Positions 31,244 to 35,592 of a DNA stretch of 35,650 nt are shown here, in pieces. The DNA comes from Marinitenerispora sediminis (GTDB taxonomy: Bacteria > Actinomycetota > Actinomycetes > Streptosporangiales > Streptosporangiaceae). Made by a program: the position numbers and the translations under genes. The notes below the pieces were generated by a model, which saw only the letters and a list, made by a program, of their open reading frames with translations, ran no database searches and was not told where the DNA came from. Within the stretch, counting starts at the first letter, position 1. Each line of letters begins with the position of its first letter. The DNA lies in contig NZ_QEIO01000048.1 of NCBI RefSeq assembly GCF_003336425.1, forward strand, positions 1 to 35,650. Reading direction: 5' to 3'.

Positions 31244-31378
31244 GTGAAGACGTACGAACCACGGCAGACCGGTATCCGGGTCCGCCCGCACCACCCGGAC
31301 AGGCCGGTGTCCGGACGGGCCGCCGCCACCCCTCGGCCCCGCTGCCGGCGGCCGGCCGGCGAGCGCGCCGCGGCATGA
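31244..31378 (+). CDS. Possible 44-aa leader ORF coupled to the HTH_42 gene
   Basis: GTG 31244 has a good GAGGAAG about 10 nt upstream and opens a 44-codon frame beginning VKTYEPRQTGIRVRPHHPDR. It ends in TGA overlapping the next gene's ATG (ATGA, 31375-31378). The following gene itself lacks a ribosome-binding site, so translational coupling through this frame would make sense. The C-terminal half is Arg/Pro/Ala-rich and not protein-like, so the call is weak; it could also be chance. Confidence 0.28.
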   Translation: MKTYEPRQTGIRVRPHHPDRPVSGRAAATPRPRCRRPAGERAAA

Positions 31379-32484
31379 CCGCCATGGCCGTTCTCGACAC
31401 CCGGGCGCTCAACCGTGCGACGCTCGCCCGGCAGCTGCTGCTCGACCGCGCCGACGTCGGCGTCCAGGACGCCGTCGCGCACCTGTGCGGCCTGCAGGCC
31501 CAGGAGCCGCAGGAGCCGTTCGTGGGGCTCTGGTCCCGGCTGCGCGCGTTCGACCCGATGGAACTCTCCGACCTGCTGGTGCGGCGCGGTGTGGTGCGGA
31601 CGCACCTCATGCGCCGCACCGTCCACCTCCTCACCGCCGACGACGTCCTGGCCTGGCGGGCCCGGCACGGCGCCATGCTGCGCCAGCGGGTCCTCGGCGT
31701 CTACCGCGACGAGCTCGCGGGGGTGGACCTCGACGAGCTCGCCGCGGCCGGCCGGGCGGTGATGGCCGACGGCCGGCCCCGCTCGATGGCCGAACTCGCG
31801 CGGGCGGTGGCCGATCGCTGGCCGGAGCCCGGACCGCGGGCGCTCGGCGAGATGCTGGTCGCCGCCCTCCTCCCGATGGTGCAGCTGCCCCCGCGCGGCC
31901 TGTGGCGCACGAAGGCGGGGGTGCGCAACGTCCTGCTCGCCTCCTGGGTGGGGCGCGAGATCGACCCGCCGGCGCCCGACGGCTCCGACCCGGTCGGTGC
32001 GGCACTGGTGCGGCGCTATCTGGCCGCGTTCGGCCCCGCCGCGACGGCCGACCTGCGCGCCTGGTGCGGCCTCGCCGGACTGCCGGCCGCGGTCGCCGCC
32101 ATCCGCGGCGAGCTGGTCGCCTTCCGCGACGAGCGGGGCCGGGAGCTGCTGGACCTCCCCGACGCGCCGCGCCCCGACCCCGGCACGCCCGCCCCGGTGC
32201 GGTTCCTGCCGGCGTTCGACAACGCGGTACTCGGCTACCACGACCGCAGCCGGATCATCGACGACGCCCACCGCGGCCTGTCGGTCGCCGGCGCGCGCGT
32301 CGTACTGGTCGACGGCCGGGTCGCCGCTACCTGGAGCGTCGAGGCGGGCACCGTGGCCGTCACTCCGCTGCACCGCTTCTCACGGGCCGACCGCGCCGCC
32401 GTGGCCGAGCAGGGGCGGGAGCTCGCGGCATTCCTGTCCGACGGCGAGAGCCGCCGCGTCGAGGTCGCCGCGTCCCCCAGCTGA
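31375..32484 (+). CDS. Winged-helix DNA-binding domain protein (HTH_42 / YcaQ-like family)
   Basis: 369 aa. It begins LDTRALNRATLARQLLLDRA, then VAHLCGLQAQEPQEPFVGLW, then LVRRGVVRTHLMRRTVHLLT, and later LRAWCGLAGLPAAVAAIRGE and VRFLPAFDNAVLGYHDRSRI. This is the actinobacterial HTH_42 (PF06224) pattern. The family includes DNA glycosylases such as E. coli YcaQ and AlkZ, which remove damaged or crosslinked bases. The glycosylase QxQ-type motif appears as LQAQEP near residue 40, so repair activity is possible but unproven. ATG 31375 and ATG 31384 are both possible; neither has a ribosome-binding site. Confidence 0.85.
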   Translation: MTAMAVLDTRALNRATLARQLLLDRADVGVQDAVAHLCGLQAQEPQEPFVGLWSRLRAFDPMELSDLLVRRGVVRTHLMRRTVHLLTADDVLAWRARHGAMLRQRVLGVYRDELAGVDLDELAAAGRAVMADGRPRSMAELARAVADRWPEPGPRALGEMLVAALLPMVQLPPRGLWRTKAGVRNVLLASWVGREIDPPAPDGSDPVGAALVRRYLAAFGPAATADLRAWCGLAGLPAAVAAIRGELVAFRDERGRELLDLPDAPRPDPGTPAPVRFLPAFDNAVLGYHDRSRIIDDAHRGLSVAGARVVLVDGRVAATWSVEAGTVAVTPLHRFSRADRAAVAEQGRELAAFLSDGESRRVEVAASPS

Positions 32485-32552
32485 GCCGCTGCCCGGAAGG
32501 CGGGACCGCCCGCCGCCGGTGGGGCCGCGGCCTCGGGGCGCGGCGGCCCGGC

Positions 32553-33518
32553 TCAGGCGGGACCGTCGGCGGCGTTGTCGTCGGCGAGTGCGCGGACCCG
32601 GCGCAGCAGCGCCTCCCGCACACTGCGCGGCGCAAGTACCCGCAGCCGGGTGCCCAAGCCGAGGAGGTAGGCGGCGAGCCCGTCCGCGTCAGGGCCTCCG
32701 ATCTCGACCACGGTGGCGTCGGCGCCATCGGGCCGGTGGGCGCCGACCGATGGCGGGATCAGCCGCCGCGCCTCGCTCTCGGGCAGCGGCAGCCGGACGA
32801 CGGCGTAGACCGGGTAGCGGGCGCCGGATCTGGCGTGCGAGACCAGCAGCCCCGGATCAGGCGGATCGGTGAAGTCCACCGGCCGCCCGACCGGATCGAC
32901 GCTGCGCACCCGGTCGCCGCGAAAGGTCCGCCACTCCCCCTTGTCCACGTCCCGGGCGACGAAGTACCAGCGCCGCCCGGTGTGCACGAGGCGGTAGGGA
33001 TCGACGCCGCGTTCGCTCGTCCGCCCCCTCCGGTCCTGGTAGACCAGGCGGGCACGCTCGCCGCGGCGGCACGCCAGCGCCAGCGCCAGGAGCACGTCCG
33101 CGGCGATCTGCGGCTCGGGAGGGCCGGGGAGGTGGACCATGGCCGAGTCCATCTCCCCCAGGCGGTCCGAGACCGACGGCGGAAGGACCTGCCGCAGCTT
33201 CAGCAGGGCCGACACCGCCGCCTGCCCGTCACCGAGGACCCCGCGCAGTGTCGAGTCCCGCAGCGCGACCGCCACCGCCAGCGCTTCCTCGTCGTCGAGG
33301 ACCAGCGGTGGCATCCGGTCGGCGGCACCGAGGTGGTAACCGCCCCACGGTCCCGGATCGGACTCGACCCCGTACCCCAGCTCCCGCAGCCGGGCGACGT
33401 CGCGGCGGACCGTGCGCTCGGAGACGCCCAGGCGCGCGGCCAACTCGCCCGAGGTCCACTGCGGCCGCGAGGCGAGCAGCGCGCAGAGCCGCAGCAGGCG
33501 GATCGTCGTACCGGTCAC
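32553..33518 (-). CDS. WYL-domain transcriptional regulator (YafY family)
   Basis: 321 aa. HTH at residues 1-60: TIRLLRLCALLASRPQWTSG, then ELAARLGVSERTVRRDVARL and RELGYGVESDPG. The WYL domain includes LVYQDRRGR, then VDPYRLVHTGRRWYFVARDV and DKGEWRTFRGDRV (WYF in place of WYL). The C-terminal extension includes PVYAVVRLPLPESEARRLIP, then GLAAYLLGLGTRLRVLAP. The start is GTG 33518; GACACT lies 6 nt upstream and no Shine-Dalgarno site is seen. It is divergent from a VOC gene across 62 bp that contain an inverted repeat, its likely operator. It is a distant paralogue of the WYL regulator at 29198-30214. Confidence 0.92.
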   Translation of the reverse strand: MTGTTIRLLRLCALLASRPQWTSGELAARLGVSERTVRRDVARLRELGYGVESDPGPWGGYHLGAADRMPPLVLDDEEALAVAVALRDSTLRGVLGDGQAAVSALLKLRQVLPPSVSDRLGEMDSAMVHLPGPPEPQIAADVLLALALACRRGERARLVYQDRRGRTSERGVDPYRLVHTGRRWYFVARDVDKGEWRTFRGDRVRSVDPVGRPVDFTDPPDPGLLVSHARSGARYPVYAVVRLPLPESEARRLIPPSVGAHRPDGADATVVEIGGPDADGLAAYLLGLGTRLRVLAPRSVREALLRRVRALADDNAADGPA

Positions 33519-33541
33519 ACCAGGAGTGTCCCCGACGACCA

Positions 33542-33556
33542 GGACAGCACCTGTCC
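33542..33556. promoter_or_regulatory. Inverted repeat between WYL regulator and VOC gene
   Basis: GGACAG-cac-CTGTCC is a perfect 6-3-6 inverted repeat centred between the divergent starts. It is followed by TAGCGT (33568-33573), a -10-like box ending 7 nt before the VOC ATG. This suits binding by the adjacent WYL regulator; the link is inferred. Confidence 0.45.
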
Positions 33557-33580
33557 GGGTCGGCCCGTAGCGTCCCGGAC

Positions 33581-33967
33581 ATGAGCAACGACGTCGTATC
33601 CGCGCCTGTCTTCCGCTATGTGGCCGTCACGTTCGACTGCCCGGATCCGGCCGAGCTGGCCCGGTTCTACGGTGAGGCCCTCGGCCTCCCGGTGGTGTTC
33701 TCCAGCGACCACTTCGTGTTCCTGGGGCGCGAGGGCGAGCCCGGCCTGGGGTTCAACAGGCTTGAGGACTACCGGCGCCCGACCTGGCCGGACGCGGCCC
33801 GGGAGAAGCGGGCCCACCTCGAATTCGGGGTCGACGACCTGGATTCGGCCGAGGCCCGCCTGGCCGCCCTCGGGGCCGTCAAGCCCGCACACCAGCCCGC
33901 CCCCGACCGATGGAGGGTGCTCCTGGACCCGGCCGGCCACCCGTTCTGCGTCTCCCTCCTGGTCTAG
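33581..33967 (+). CDS. VOC (glyoxalase/bleomycin-resistance/dioxygenase fold) protein
   Basis: A 128-aa protein with two beta-alpha-beta-beta-beta modules: FRYVAVTFDCPDPAELARFY, then GEALGLPVVFSSDHFVFLGR, then KRAHLEFGVDDLDSAEARLA, then WRVLLDPAGHPFCVSLL. The glyoxalase_6-like pattern and length match the many actinobacterial VOC proteins of unknown substrate. Metal-site residues are not all obvious. ATG 33581 has no Shine-Dalgarno site; TAGCGT ends 7 nt before it. A very strong hairpin follows the stop. Confidence 0.88.
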   Translation: MSNDVVSAPVFRYVAVTFDCPDPAELARFYGEALGLPVVFSSDHFVFLGREGEPGLGFNRLEDYRRPTWPDAAREKRAHLEFGVDDLDSAEARLAALGAVKPAHQPAPDRWRVLLDPAGHPFCVSLLV

Positions 33968-34022
33968 GCCGAACGTCTGGGCCCAACGCTGCCGAAGCTC
34001 CGCAGTCCGGGAGCACCCCGGC

Positions 34023-34089
34023 AGCGCGGAACGCCCGCCCCCGCCGCCCGTCCTTGCCGGACGAGCGGCGGGGGCGGGCGTTCCGCGCT
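34023..34089. terminator. Exceptionally long bidirectional terminator hairpin
   Basis: Arms of 31 nt (34023-34053 and 34059-34089) pair at all but one position around the 5-nt loop TTGCC. They lie between the converging VOC and TetR genes. The arms start AGCGCGGAACGCCCGCCC. It is far longer than a usual terminator stem, so a second role (repeat element, recombination or replication-related structure) is possible. Confidence 0.7.
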
Positions 34090-34109
34090 CCCCTGGGCGC
34101 CGGCGGCGT

Positions 34110-34718
34110 TCACCCGGCGGTCGCGCTGTCCAGGAGCGCGTCCACGATCCGGTCGGCGTAGGCGGCGTCGATCGGTTCGGCGGTGACGAGCACACGCAGG
34201 AACAGCGGTGCGATGAGCCGCTCGATGAGGAACGCGACGTCGGTGTCCGGAGGAAGCTCGCCGCGCTCGACTCCGCGTCCGACGACGGCGCCGGCCAGGG
34301 CGAACCGCTCACTCCAGAATGTCCGGGCCGCCCCGGCGATCTCCGGGACCCGGCCGGCGTCGGAGACCAGCGTGCGCAGCAGCCCCTGGCCGTCGGGTGA
34401 GGAGATGTTCGCGGCGATCGCGTGCGTGAGCCGGCGCAGGTCCTCGCGCAGCGACCCGGTGTCGGGCATCGGCACCGCGCTGCCGGTGTGCGCGAGCAGC
34501 GCCTCCGCGAGGAGCTCCTCCTTGTTGGCCCACCGCCGGTACAGCGTCGCCTTGTGCACCCCCGCGCGGGCGGCGACTCGTTCGAAGCTCAGCTTCGCGT
34601 AGCCCGACTCGACGATTTCGTCGAGCACCGCGTCGAGAACCGCCTCGTTGACCCGTGCACTGCGGCCGCCGGGGCGCATACGCCGCCGCGGGTCGCCGCG
34701 GCGGGACGGTACTGCCAT
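34110..34718 (-). CDS. TetR family transcriptional regulator
   Basis: 202 aa. HTH: ARVNEAVLDAVLDEIVESGY, then AKLSFERVAARAGVHKATLY and RRWANKEELLAEAL. The C-terminal domain has REDLRRLTHAIAANISSPDG, then GLLRTLVSDAGRVPEIAGAA and FWSERFALAGAVVGRGVERG, resembling TetR_C_11/AcrR-type proteins. GAGGAGG lies about 6 nt before ATG 34718. Two matching 19-bp palindromes lie between it and the divergent membrane-protein gene, almost certainly its operators. It likely represses both genes. Confidence 0.93.
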   Translation of the reverse strand: MAVPSRRGDPRRRMRPGGRSARVNEAVLDAVLDEIVESGYAKLSFERVAARAGVHKATLYRRWANKEELLAEALLAHTGSAVPMPDTGSLREDLRRLTHAIAANISSPDGQGLLRTLVSDAGRVPEIAGAARTFWSERFALAGAVVGRGVERGELPPDTDVAFLIERLIAPLFLRVLVTAEPIDAAYADRIVDALLDSATAG

Positions 34719-34732
34719 GGCCACCTCCTCTA

Positions 34733-34751
34733 TGGCGACAACATGTTGCCA
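34733..34751. promoter_or_regulatory. TetR operator O1
   Basis: TGGCGACA-aca-TGTTGCCA, half-sites matching at 7 of 8 positions, with flanking TA on both sides. It ends 15 nt before the TetR start. It shares its left half exactly with the second site 48 bp away. The consensus is TGGCGACA-N3-TGTCGCCA. Confidence 0.75.
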
Positions 34752-34780
34752 TAAGAGCGGTGGCCGTGGGAAGGTTCTTG

Positions 34781-34799
34781 TGGCGACATCAGGTCGCCA
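34781..34799. promoter_or_regulatory. TetR operator O2, inside a larger perfect inverted repeat
   Basis: TGGCGACA-tca-GGTCGCCA, the same 19-bp pattern as O1. It is embedded in a perfect 13-5-13 inverted repeat (34775-34787, partner 34793-34805) that runs up to the ribosome-binding site (AAGGGGA) of the membrane-protein gene. Repressor bound here would block that gene's transcription; the RNA form could also fold next to the ribosome-binding site. Confidence 0.75.
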
Positions 34800-34815
34800 C
34801 AAGAAGGGGAGTCCC

Positions 34816-35247
34816 ATGTCGGCGATGGCCAATCCAACGTCCTCCGGCCGCGCGACGCACGCGCGCCGCGACCTCATCGGCCGGGCCCTGGTGGGCGTCG
34901 CGGCACTCGCCGCCGCGGCCGCGGCCCTGGACGCCCTGTGGTCGCTGGGCGGCGCGGCCGACGCGATCAAGGTCGTCAGCGCGTGGCGGGCCTACGGCCT
35001 GCTCGTGTTCAGTGCGCTGTTCACGCTGCTGGCGGCGCGTCCGAGGGCCTACCGCGGCGTGTGGGAGGTCGTCATCTTCCACAAGCTCGCGATGACCCTG
35101 ACCGCCGTGGTGTACCAGGTGCGGGGCGGCGTGGCCGACGCGGACACCATCATCGTCGCGGACGGGATCCTCACGGTCGCCCTGGTGTCCGCCTACGTCC
35201 TGTGCCGGGGCTGGAGTCAGCGGCCCGCGCCGCCCGCACGCGGCTGA
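34816..35247 (+). CDS. Small four-helix membrane protein, TetR-controlled
   Basis: A 143-aa integral membrane protein with about four hydrophobic helices: ALVGVAALAAAAAALDALWS, AYGLLVFSALFTLLAARP, WEVVIFHKLAMTLTAVVYQV and VADGILTVALVSAYVLC. The N- and C-termini are polar and basic. I do not recognise a named family; similar small proteins in actinomycetes are annotated as hypothetical or DoxX/DUF-type membrane proteins. AAGGGGA about 6 nt before ATG 34816 decides the start. The divergent TetR regulator and two operators show that expression is switched by a ligand, hinting at a role in stress or efflux, which is inference. Confidence 0.8.
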   Translation: MSAMANPTSSGRATHARRDLIGRALVGVAALAAAAAALDALWSLGGAADAIKVVSAWRAYGLLVFSALFTLLAARPRAYRGVWEVVIFHKLAMTLTAVVYQVRGGVADADTIIVADGILTVALVSAYVLCRGWSQRPAPPARG

Positions 35248-35319
35248 GCACCCCCGGCCACGCCCTTCGCCCGCGAACCGCCCGCACGGCACATCGGGCC
35301 GGACGCCTCGCGTCCCTCG

Positions 35320-35592
35320 CGGTGCGCCCGCACCCTGTGGGCCTCGCACGACGTCCGCGTCCGGCACGAGGGGACCAAGCGGCTCCAGCACCCGGAGGTT
35401 GGCCAGCTCGAACTGACCTACCGGTCCCTCGATCTGCCGGCCTCCCAGCACGCCGTGCACGACCTCTCGCTCTACACCGCCGAACCGGGAACTCCGCACG
35501 AGGAACGGCTCAAGCTCCTCGCGAGCTGGTCCGCTCGCCACCCGGCCAAGCACCCATGGGGGCTCCGCTCCTCCCACCCCCCGTCGCGCTGA
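35320..35592 (+). pseudogene. C-terminal remnant of an MmyB-type helix-turn-helix regulator
   Basis: The plus strand up to TGA 35590-35592 reads RTLWASHDVRVRHEGTKRLQ, then HPEVGQLELTYRSLDLPASQ, then HAVHDLSLYTAEPGTPHEER and LKLLASW. This is the end of the MmyB-like ligand-binding domain (LWARHDVR, K-F-HP-VG-LEL-Y-SL, YTAEPG---E--L-LLASW) that follows an XRE-type HTH in actinobacterial regulators. No start codon or HTH is encoded upstream; the 70 bp after the membrane-protein gene are unrelated. It is a deletion relic. Confidence 0.7.

Follow-up and report, generated by a model that had tools for sequence, protein, structure and literature searches.

The window, i.e., the whole stretch of 35,650 nucleotides of Marinitenerispora sediminis DNA that was analysed, very probably carries a conserved TetR switch of a familiar kind, with twin operators, which would control a member of an unnamed membrane-protein family. 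Specifically, we give a probability of about 0.86 to a classical TetR-type switch acting on DNA, self-regulating and based on a repression that is relieved by a ligand. The architecture, the spacing and the position of the twin sites, as well as their association with this gene pair and with one type of regulator, are established by comparison of related loci.

Layout of the locus and of its counterparts

In the window, tetR and the membrane-protein gene are divergent and separated by a gap of 97 bp (34719-34815). The regulator matches both TetR_N (PF00440; E 1.1e-12, 48 bits against a cut-off of 24) and TetR_C_11 (PF16859; E 7.1e-34, 117 bits against a cut-off of 32). The features of the region are listed below in window coordinates.

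34110-34718, minus strand: tetR, TetR-family regulator gene (202 aa, P0001; TetR_N plus TetR_C_11), from its translation
34724-34729, minus strand: Shine-Dalgarno sequence AGGAGG of tetR, by sequence reading, 5 nt from the ATG
34733-34751, no strand: predicted operator 1 (site A), TGGCGACAACATGTTGCCA, with a counterpart in six of six pairs
34746-34751, plus strand: putative -35 element TTGCCA of the membrane-protein promoter; TTGC occurs here in six of six control regions
34770-34775, plus strand: putative -10 element GAAGGT of the same promoter, from the scripted geometry of the six regions
34775-34805, no strand: perfect 13-5-13 inverted repeat surrounding operator 2; its length is not kept in the other five pairs
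34781-34799, no strand: predicted operator 2 (site B), TGGCGACATCAGGTCGCCA, with a counterpart in six of six pairs
34806-34811, plus strand: Shine-Dalgarno sequence GGGGAG of the membrane-protein gene, not part of the long hairpin; the ATG is at 34816
34816-35247, plus strand: four-helix membrane-protein gene (143 aa, P0002), from its translation, with no named family

Each site departs by one mismatch from the 19-bp pattern TGGCGACA-N3-TGTCGCCA, and the two centres, at 34742 and 34790, lie 48 bp apart. The mismatch counts and the distance had been given by the sequence-only reading and proved exact when the sequence was read again. The same reading had described a perfect 13-5-13 repeat extending the second site, which was found again at its place abutting GGGGAG, and a position between a TetR gene and a divergent gene for a four-helix membrane protein, which the translations, the Pfam searches and an AlphaFold2 model confirm. 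Sites A and B are also 24-nt direct repeats, 83% alike, so that their similarity reaches beyond the palindrome. Operator 1 adjoins the Shine-Dalgarno sequence of tetR, and the putative -35 element of the membrane-protein gene overlaps with the right half of this operator; operator 2 would span the predicted transcription start, and the inverted repeat around it ends directly 5′ of GGGGAG.

As to the surroundings of the pair, the neighbours at 31375-33967 are an AlkZ-like DNA glycosylase, a WYL-domain regulator and a glyoxalase-like protein. Between the convergent glyoxalase-like gene and tetR, at 34020-34092, there is an inverted repeat of 34 nt (94% complementary, loop of 5 nt), which is perhaps a two-way terminator. 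At 35323-35592, downstream of the membrane-protein gene, the ligand-binding domain of MmyB-like regulators (PF17765) is matched in its C-terminal part, over profile positions 106-168, which suggests a gene remnant.

With up to three mismatches allowed, the window contains two sites against 0.20 expected, a number that 3 of 100 shuffles reached. In the whole genome (6.01 Mb), the same threshold gives 18 places, namely two at one mismatch, one at two and fifteen at three, while a control pattern gives 43 matches; the sites with three mismatches are therefore noise. The genome scan for further sites, proposed in the sequence-only reading, thus returned sites A and B as the only one-mismatch matches. 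The sole site with two mismatches (L008) overlaps the 3′ end of a gene read, without a family search, as that of ribosomal protein S1. A wider regulon in the same genome was rejected, there being no other one-mismatch site and the best other place being this putative S1 gene end.

Homologues of the membrane protein were found at 33 places in 30 of the 297 family genomes searched, and 31 of these places (L021-L050 plus the second place in G177, reached through L073) were examined. A window-like regulator adjoins the membrane-protein gene in six loci, i.e., in the window, in Nonomuraea indica (G121) and in genomes G230, G151, G134, and G177; for the window, L023, and L073, the Pfam searches confirm TetR_C_11. 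In all six pairs, two GCGAC-N5-GTYGC cores precede the membrane-protein gene, at a start-to-start distance of 48 bp in the window and of 50 bp in the other five, with the site positions taken sequence by sequence and not from a DNA alignment. Both palindromes are thus present, not absent, in all six pairs found. The six regulators form two sets of three, about 45% identical between sets, and the six pairs therefore amount to fewer than six independent tests.

The six control regions share a further geometry: TTGC in the right part of site A is followed by a spacer of 17 nt (G151, G134, and G177) or 18 nt (window, G230, and N. indica) and then by TG-N-xAxxxT. The putative -35/-10 hexamers are TTGCCA/GAAGGT in the window and TTGCAT/CATCGT (twice), TTGCGT/CATTCT, TTGCCG/CATGCT, and TTGCCC/CATGCT in the other five. 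The -10 hexamer of the window, with TG-N just 5′ of it and the 18-nt spacer separating it from the -35, is weak, the other five having CATNNT. The core of site B starts 7-10 nt after the -10 hexamer in the six regions. With this geometry, site A would cover the -35 element and site B the probable start. Site A always has GTTGC where site B has GTCGC, a difference most likely due to the -35 element carried by site A. A scan for consensus promoters between 34600 and 34950 found none on either strand, and the putative promoter is therefore placed by comparison of the six regions.

We infer binding, repression, a ligand and a membrane-protein function as follows. Dimers of the TetR_C_11 regulator would bind the two palindromes (core GCGAC-N5-GTYGC) that bracket the membrane-protein promoter, occluding the -35 element from operator 1 and the transcription start from operator 2. 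Since operator 1 precedes the Shine-Dalgarno sequence of tetR, its occupation could also block tetR, resulting in autoregulation. A small ligand would free the repressor and allow the expression of both genes, and the four-helix protein would then work at the membrane on the ligand or on its effect.

Alternative readings of the sites

The sequence-only reading had suggested that control might occur both on DNA and on RNA, with the ribosome-binding site hidden by a hairpin that the 13-5-13 repeat would also form in the mRNA. We consider this addition to the DNA switch highly unlikely. When the RNA is folded from 34770, a 13-bp hairpin of -31.4 kcal/mol is indeed obtained (z -4.05; none of 200 shuffles is as stable), and this long hairpin abuts the Shine-Dalgarno sequence of the membrane-protein gene. 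However, GGGGAG lies outside the long stem in either fold, its first three bases pairing in a 3-bp stem. Furthermore, from the promoter placed by comparison, transcription would begin inside the inverted repeat; a start near 34781 would leave a stem of 7 bp right at the 5′ end, in a fold that is ordinary (z -1.65; 14 of 200 shuffles are as stable). Among the six pairs the long hairpin occurs in the window only, with 13 contiguous arm pairs at site B as compared to 5 or 6 in the other five. Finally, Rfam gave no match at the gathering score over 33960-35300. With a long stem that is not conserved, a Shine-Dalgarno sequence outside it, a predicted start within the repeat and no Rfam match, RNA control at the membrane-protein leader is unsupported. 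On the variable arm length and the position of the Shine-Dalgarno sequence, a conserved leader structure over the ribosome-binding site was rejected as well. Of the control of the pair that had been proposed, what stands is the DNA part, with both sites in six of six pairs and binding presumed from them, while the RNA part is left without support.

The regulator could instead bind both sites for its own sake, the membrane protein being incidental. Such a purely autoregulatory role would agree with operator 1 abutting the tetR Shine-Dalgarno sequence. Gene order bears directly on this point. It is divergent in four of the six pairs and tandem in N. indica and G230, where tetR lies upstream in the same direction. 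Both tandem relatives retain one such site before tetR, again as autoregulation would have it, but two further sites stand before the membrane-protein gene, downstream of tetR. The twin sites are thus kept in front of the membrane-protein gene despite the tandem order, which indicates that they would control this gene and not tetR alone. This conservation across a change of gene order is, as far as sequences can tell, the best single argument for control of the membrane-protein gene, and it leaves a very small probability for autoregulation only.

The specificity of the twin sites was analyzed by running the exact pattern, with a gap of 28-42 bp, on 341 family genomes. It matches eight of them. 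The six pairs account for six of these matches. In the seventh (G223; L197, about 1481-1600), two GCGAC-N5-GTYGC cores spaced by 50 bp occupy the intergenic region that separates an aldehyde-dehydrogenase gene from a divergent TetR_C_11 regulator with 33% identity to that of the window; given this placement, the match is probably a real twin-site region. The eighth (G186; L194), located within a long reading frame, is a likely chance match. Seven of the eight matches therefore adjoin a TetR gene of the window type (TetR_C_11). The reversed control of the pattern matched 31 of the 341 genomes (counted from the listing), so that the twin pattern by itself is not rare and the argument rests on where the matches are located. 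In a class sample of 394 genomes, including that of the window, there were three matches, i.e., the window, L198, and L199, and tblastn (E 1e-3) found no relative of either protein in the latter two loci. A set of TetR homologues was also considered, consisting of 110 rows. Seven of these rows represent the six pairs, one locus being present twice (as L053 and L110), and the G223 regulator is outside the set. Twin sites lie upstream of tetR in the four divergent pairs vs none of the 103 rows outside the pairs, and a single site-like word occurs in 5 of these 103 rows.

Two similar cores are also found in six other loci (L102, L103, L106, L107, L108, and L109; bases 1503-1540), where GCGAC-N5-GTYGC occurs twice, 22-23 bp apart, before an MFS transporter gene (assigned by Pfam in L102), the second core lying across its likely ATG. 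None of these six loci yielded a relative of the window TetR, and a TetR of another type (TetR_C_15) lies at the edge of L102. This specificity thus appears to be common to more than one regulator.

Service to another regulator of like specificity, or membership of the pair in a wider regulon, would be in line with these MFS loci and with the same twin-site layout serving the aldehyde dehydrogenase in L197, but we find either scarcely credible, given that the window's genome has no further one-mismatch site and that a TetR_C_11 gene adjoins the sites in L197 as it does in the pairs.

Relation to known TetR systems

The TetR-type switch acting on DNA, which we prefer, belongs to a kind already well known, and the gain is therefore practical: a defined regulator, two operators and a target make the ligand and the role of the membrane protein directly testable. 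According to excerpts of PMC3511530, TetR regulators of Streptomyces usually act as repressors of a divergent neighbour when the distance is below 200 bp, whatever the neighbour encodes, and about a quarter of the divergent TetR targets are membrane proteins. Two likenesses to the window come from the same excerpts. Two 15-bp palindromes between tetR and tetA repress both promoters, and the divergent Streptomyces regulators ActR, SCO4099, SGR3979, SCO7222, and SCO3367 lie less than 200 bp from their targets. As compared to these systems, as far as the excerpts describe them, the window has another operator sequence and an unnamed four-helix target, which is no recognised pump; in addition, two of its relatives are in tandem order, and for the window we infer the binding and the ligand.

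Two other systems resemble the window in part. In Mycobacterium abscessus, MAB_4384 is a TetR-type regulator divergent to the mmpS5-mmpL5 membrane-protein operon and binds an intergenic palindrome; however, in the available portion of PMC5895659 this is a single operator of 27 bp, its 13-nt arms being separated by a spacer of 1 nt, and the target is an MmpL-class efflux pump. EdcR of Caenibius tardaugens has the same Pfam pair (PF00440 plus TetR_C_11, PF16859) and acts as a repressor, its proposed operator being a palindrome that overlaps the -10 boxes, but the operator that the accessible part of PMC8700777 gives is TnnCnnTACnAnTnGTAnnGnnA and the system controls estrogen degradation. The C-terminal model TetR_C_11 shared by EdcR and the window TetR does not imply a shared ligand. 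Among the matches listed in the open-licence PubMed Central literature, no title dealt with the tetR/membrane-protein pair. Additional interest lies in the membrane-protein family, in its repeated placement beside TetR genes and in the sign that targets have been exchanged.

The membrane-protein family and its regulators

The sequence-only reading had left the membrane protein unnamed, and so it stays: at E ≤0.1 no Pfam model matches the window protein, nor does any NCBIfam model, and none is consistent across 24 members of the family. Neither SMR nor DoxX was among the 11 Pfam families that these 24 members gave at E ≤1, with HMMER filters that drop many weak matches. Alignment A1 comprises the same number of members, six of 29 relatives (L026, L032, L034, L040, L044, and L050) having been omitted for doubtful ends or redundancy, and has eight invariant residues: A36, W57, R58, P76, W83, K90, D116, and R131. 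The AlphaFold2 model of the window protein consists of four helices (pLDDT 87.6). With this model, the best Foldseek match has an E of 1.7 and the best VIA-align match a Z of 10.5, a level common for helical bundles. The fold matches to NACHO/TMEM35A, DsbB, VKOR, and copper-storage proteins are at that common level. Overall, the searches by sequence and by fold give no convincing relative of the family.

In 20 of the 31 loci, a regulator of one of three TetR types lies within 200 bp of the start of the membrane-protein gene, a raw count without a background rate; the distance was measured from the match edge, and the neighbour search finds only relatives of four query TetRs. These loci comprise six of the window type, seven of type T33a and seven of type T33b, with the TetR on the opposite strand in 18 and on the same strand in two. 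In two further loci a TetR lies farther away, at 543 and 589 bp, and nine are without these types. PF00440 plus TetR_C_33 was found in one representative each of T33a and T33b. In the T33a loci (L024, L025, L029, L030, L031, L033, and L034, with TetR_C_33 in L024), the regulator is divergent to the membrane-protein family, and all seven have twin CCTAAC-N3-GTTAGG sites 22 bp apart.

In L037 and L045, the divergent upstream neighbour is a large AAA_16 protein (by Pfam in L045, by similar sequence in L037); the family hence also adjoins genes other than those of TetR regulators.

The regulator and its target seem to have had different histories. With its counterparts in G230 and N. indica, the window TetR shows 80-81% identity (81% for N. 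indica), and the neighbouring membrane proteins are 37-39% identical (37% for N. indica). The regulators of the window, G230, and N. indica form one set (SH-aLRT 99) in the TetR tree, which was built from 55 of the 110 rows. In the membrane-protein tree (31 rows, three of them, L026, L032, and L040, with shortened starts), the two proteins of Nonomuraea type fall together with the G151, G134, and G177 proteins (99/99). A tree joining the Nonomuraea-type proteins with the window's membrane protein was rejected (AU p 0.002), this grouping coming from the TetR tree in a test picked after both trees were known, and a single clade of all six membrane proteins was not rejected (p 0.116). The two trees are thus discordant, in keeping with separate histories of regulator and target. 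The target was apparently exchanged, i.e., replaced by another family member, or else one lineage underwent very fast change.

These observations permit a wider but tentative reading, to which we would give less than even odds: a regulator-operator module with interchangeable targets, among whose favourites an undescribed four-helix membrane-protein family would be. In this reading, the window would combine a regulator and an operator type like those in Nonomuraea with a membrane protein from a different lineage of the family. The same 50-bp twin-site layout, which would drive an aldehyde dehydrogenase through a distant TetR_C_11 relative, supports the interchangeability of targets. If this wider reading is true, the membrane-protein family would stand under several TetR types, at least one of which has different twin operators. 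The swap of a target under a nearly unchanged regulator would argue that the signal calls for the function of the family and not for an individual protein. The recurrence of this unnamed family beside different TetR regulators, if it holds, suggests a shared and useful function: as a common effector, perhaps a small exporter of a new kind or a protein protecting the membrane, the family would answer several chemical signals.
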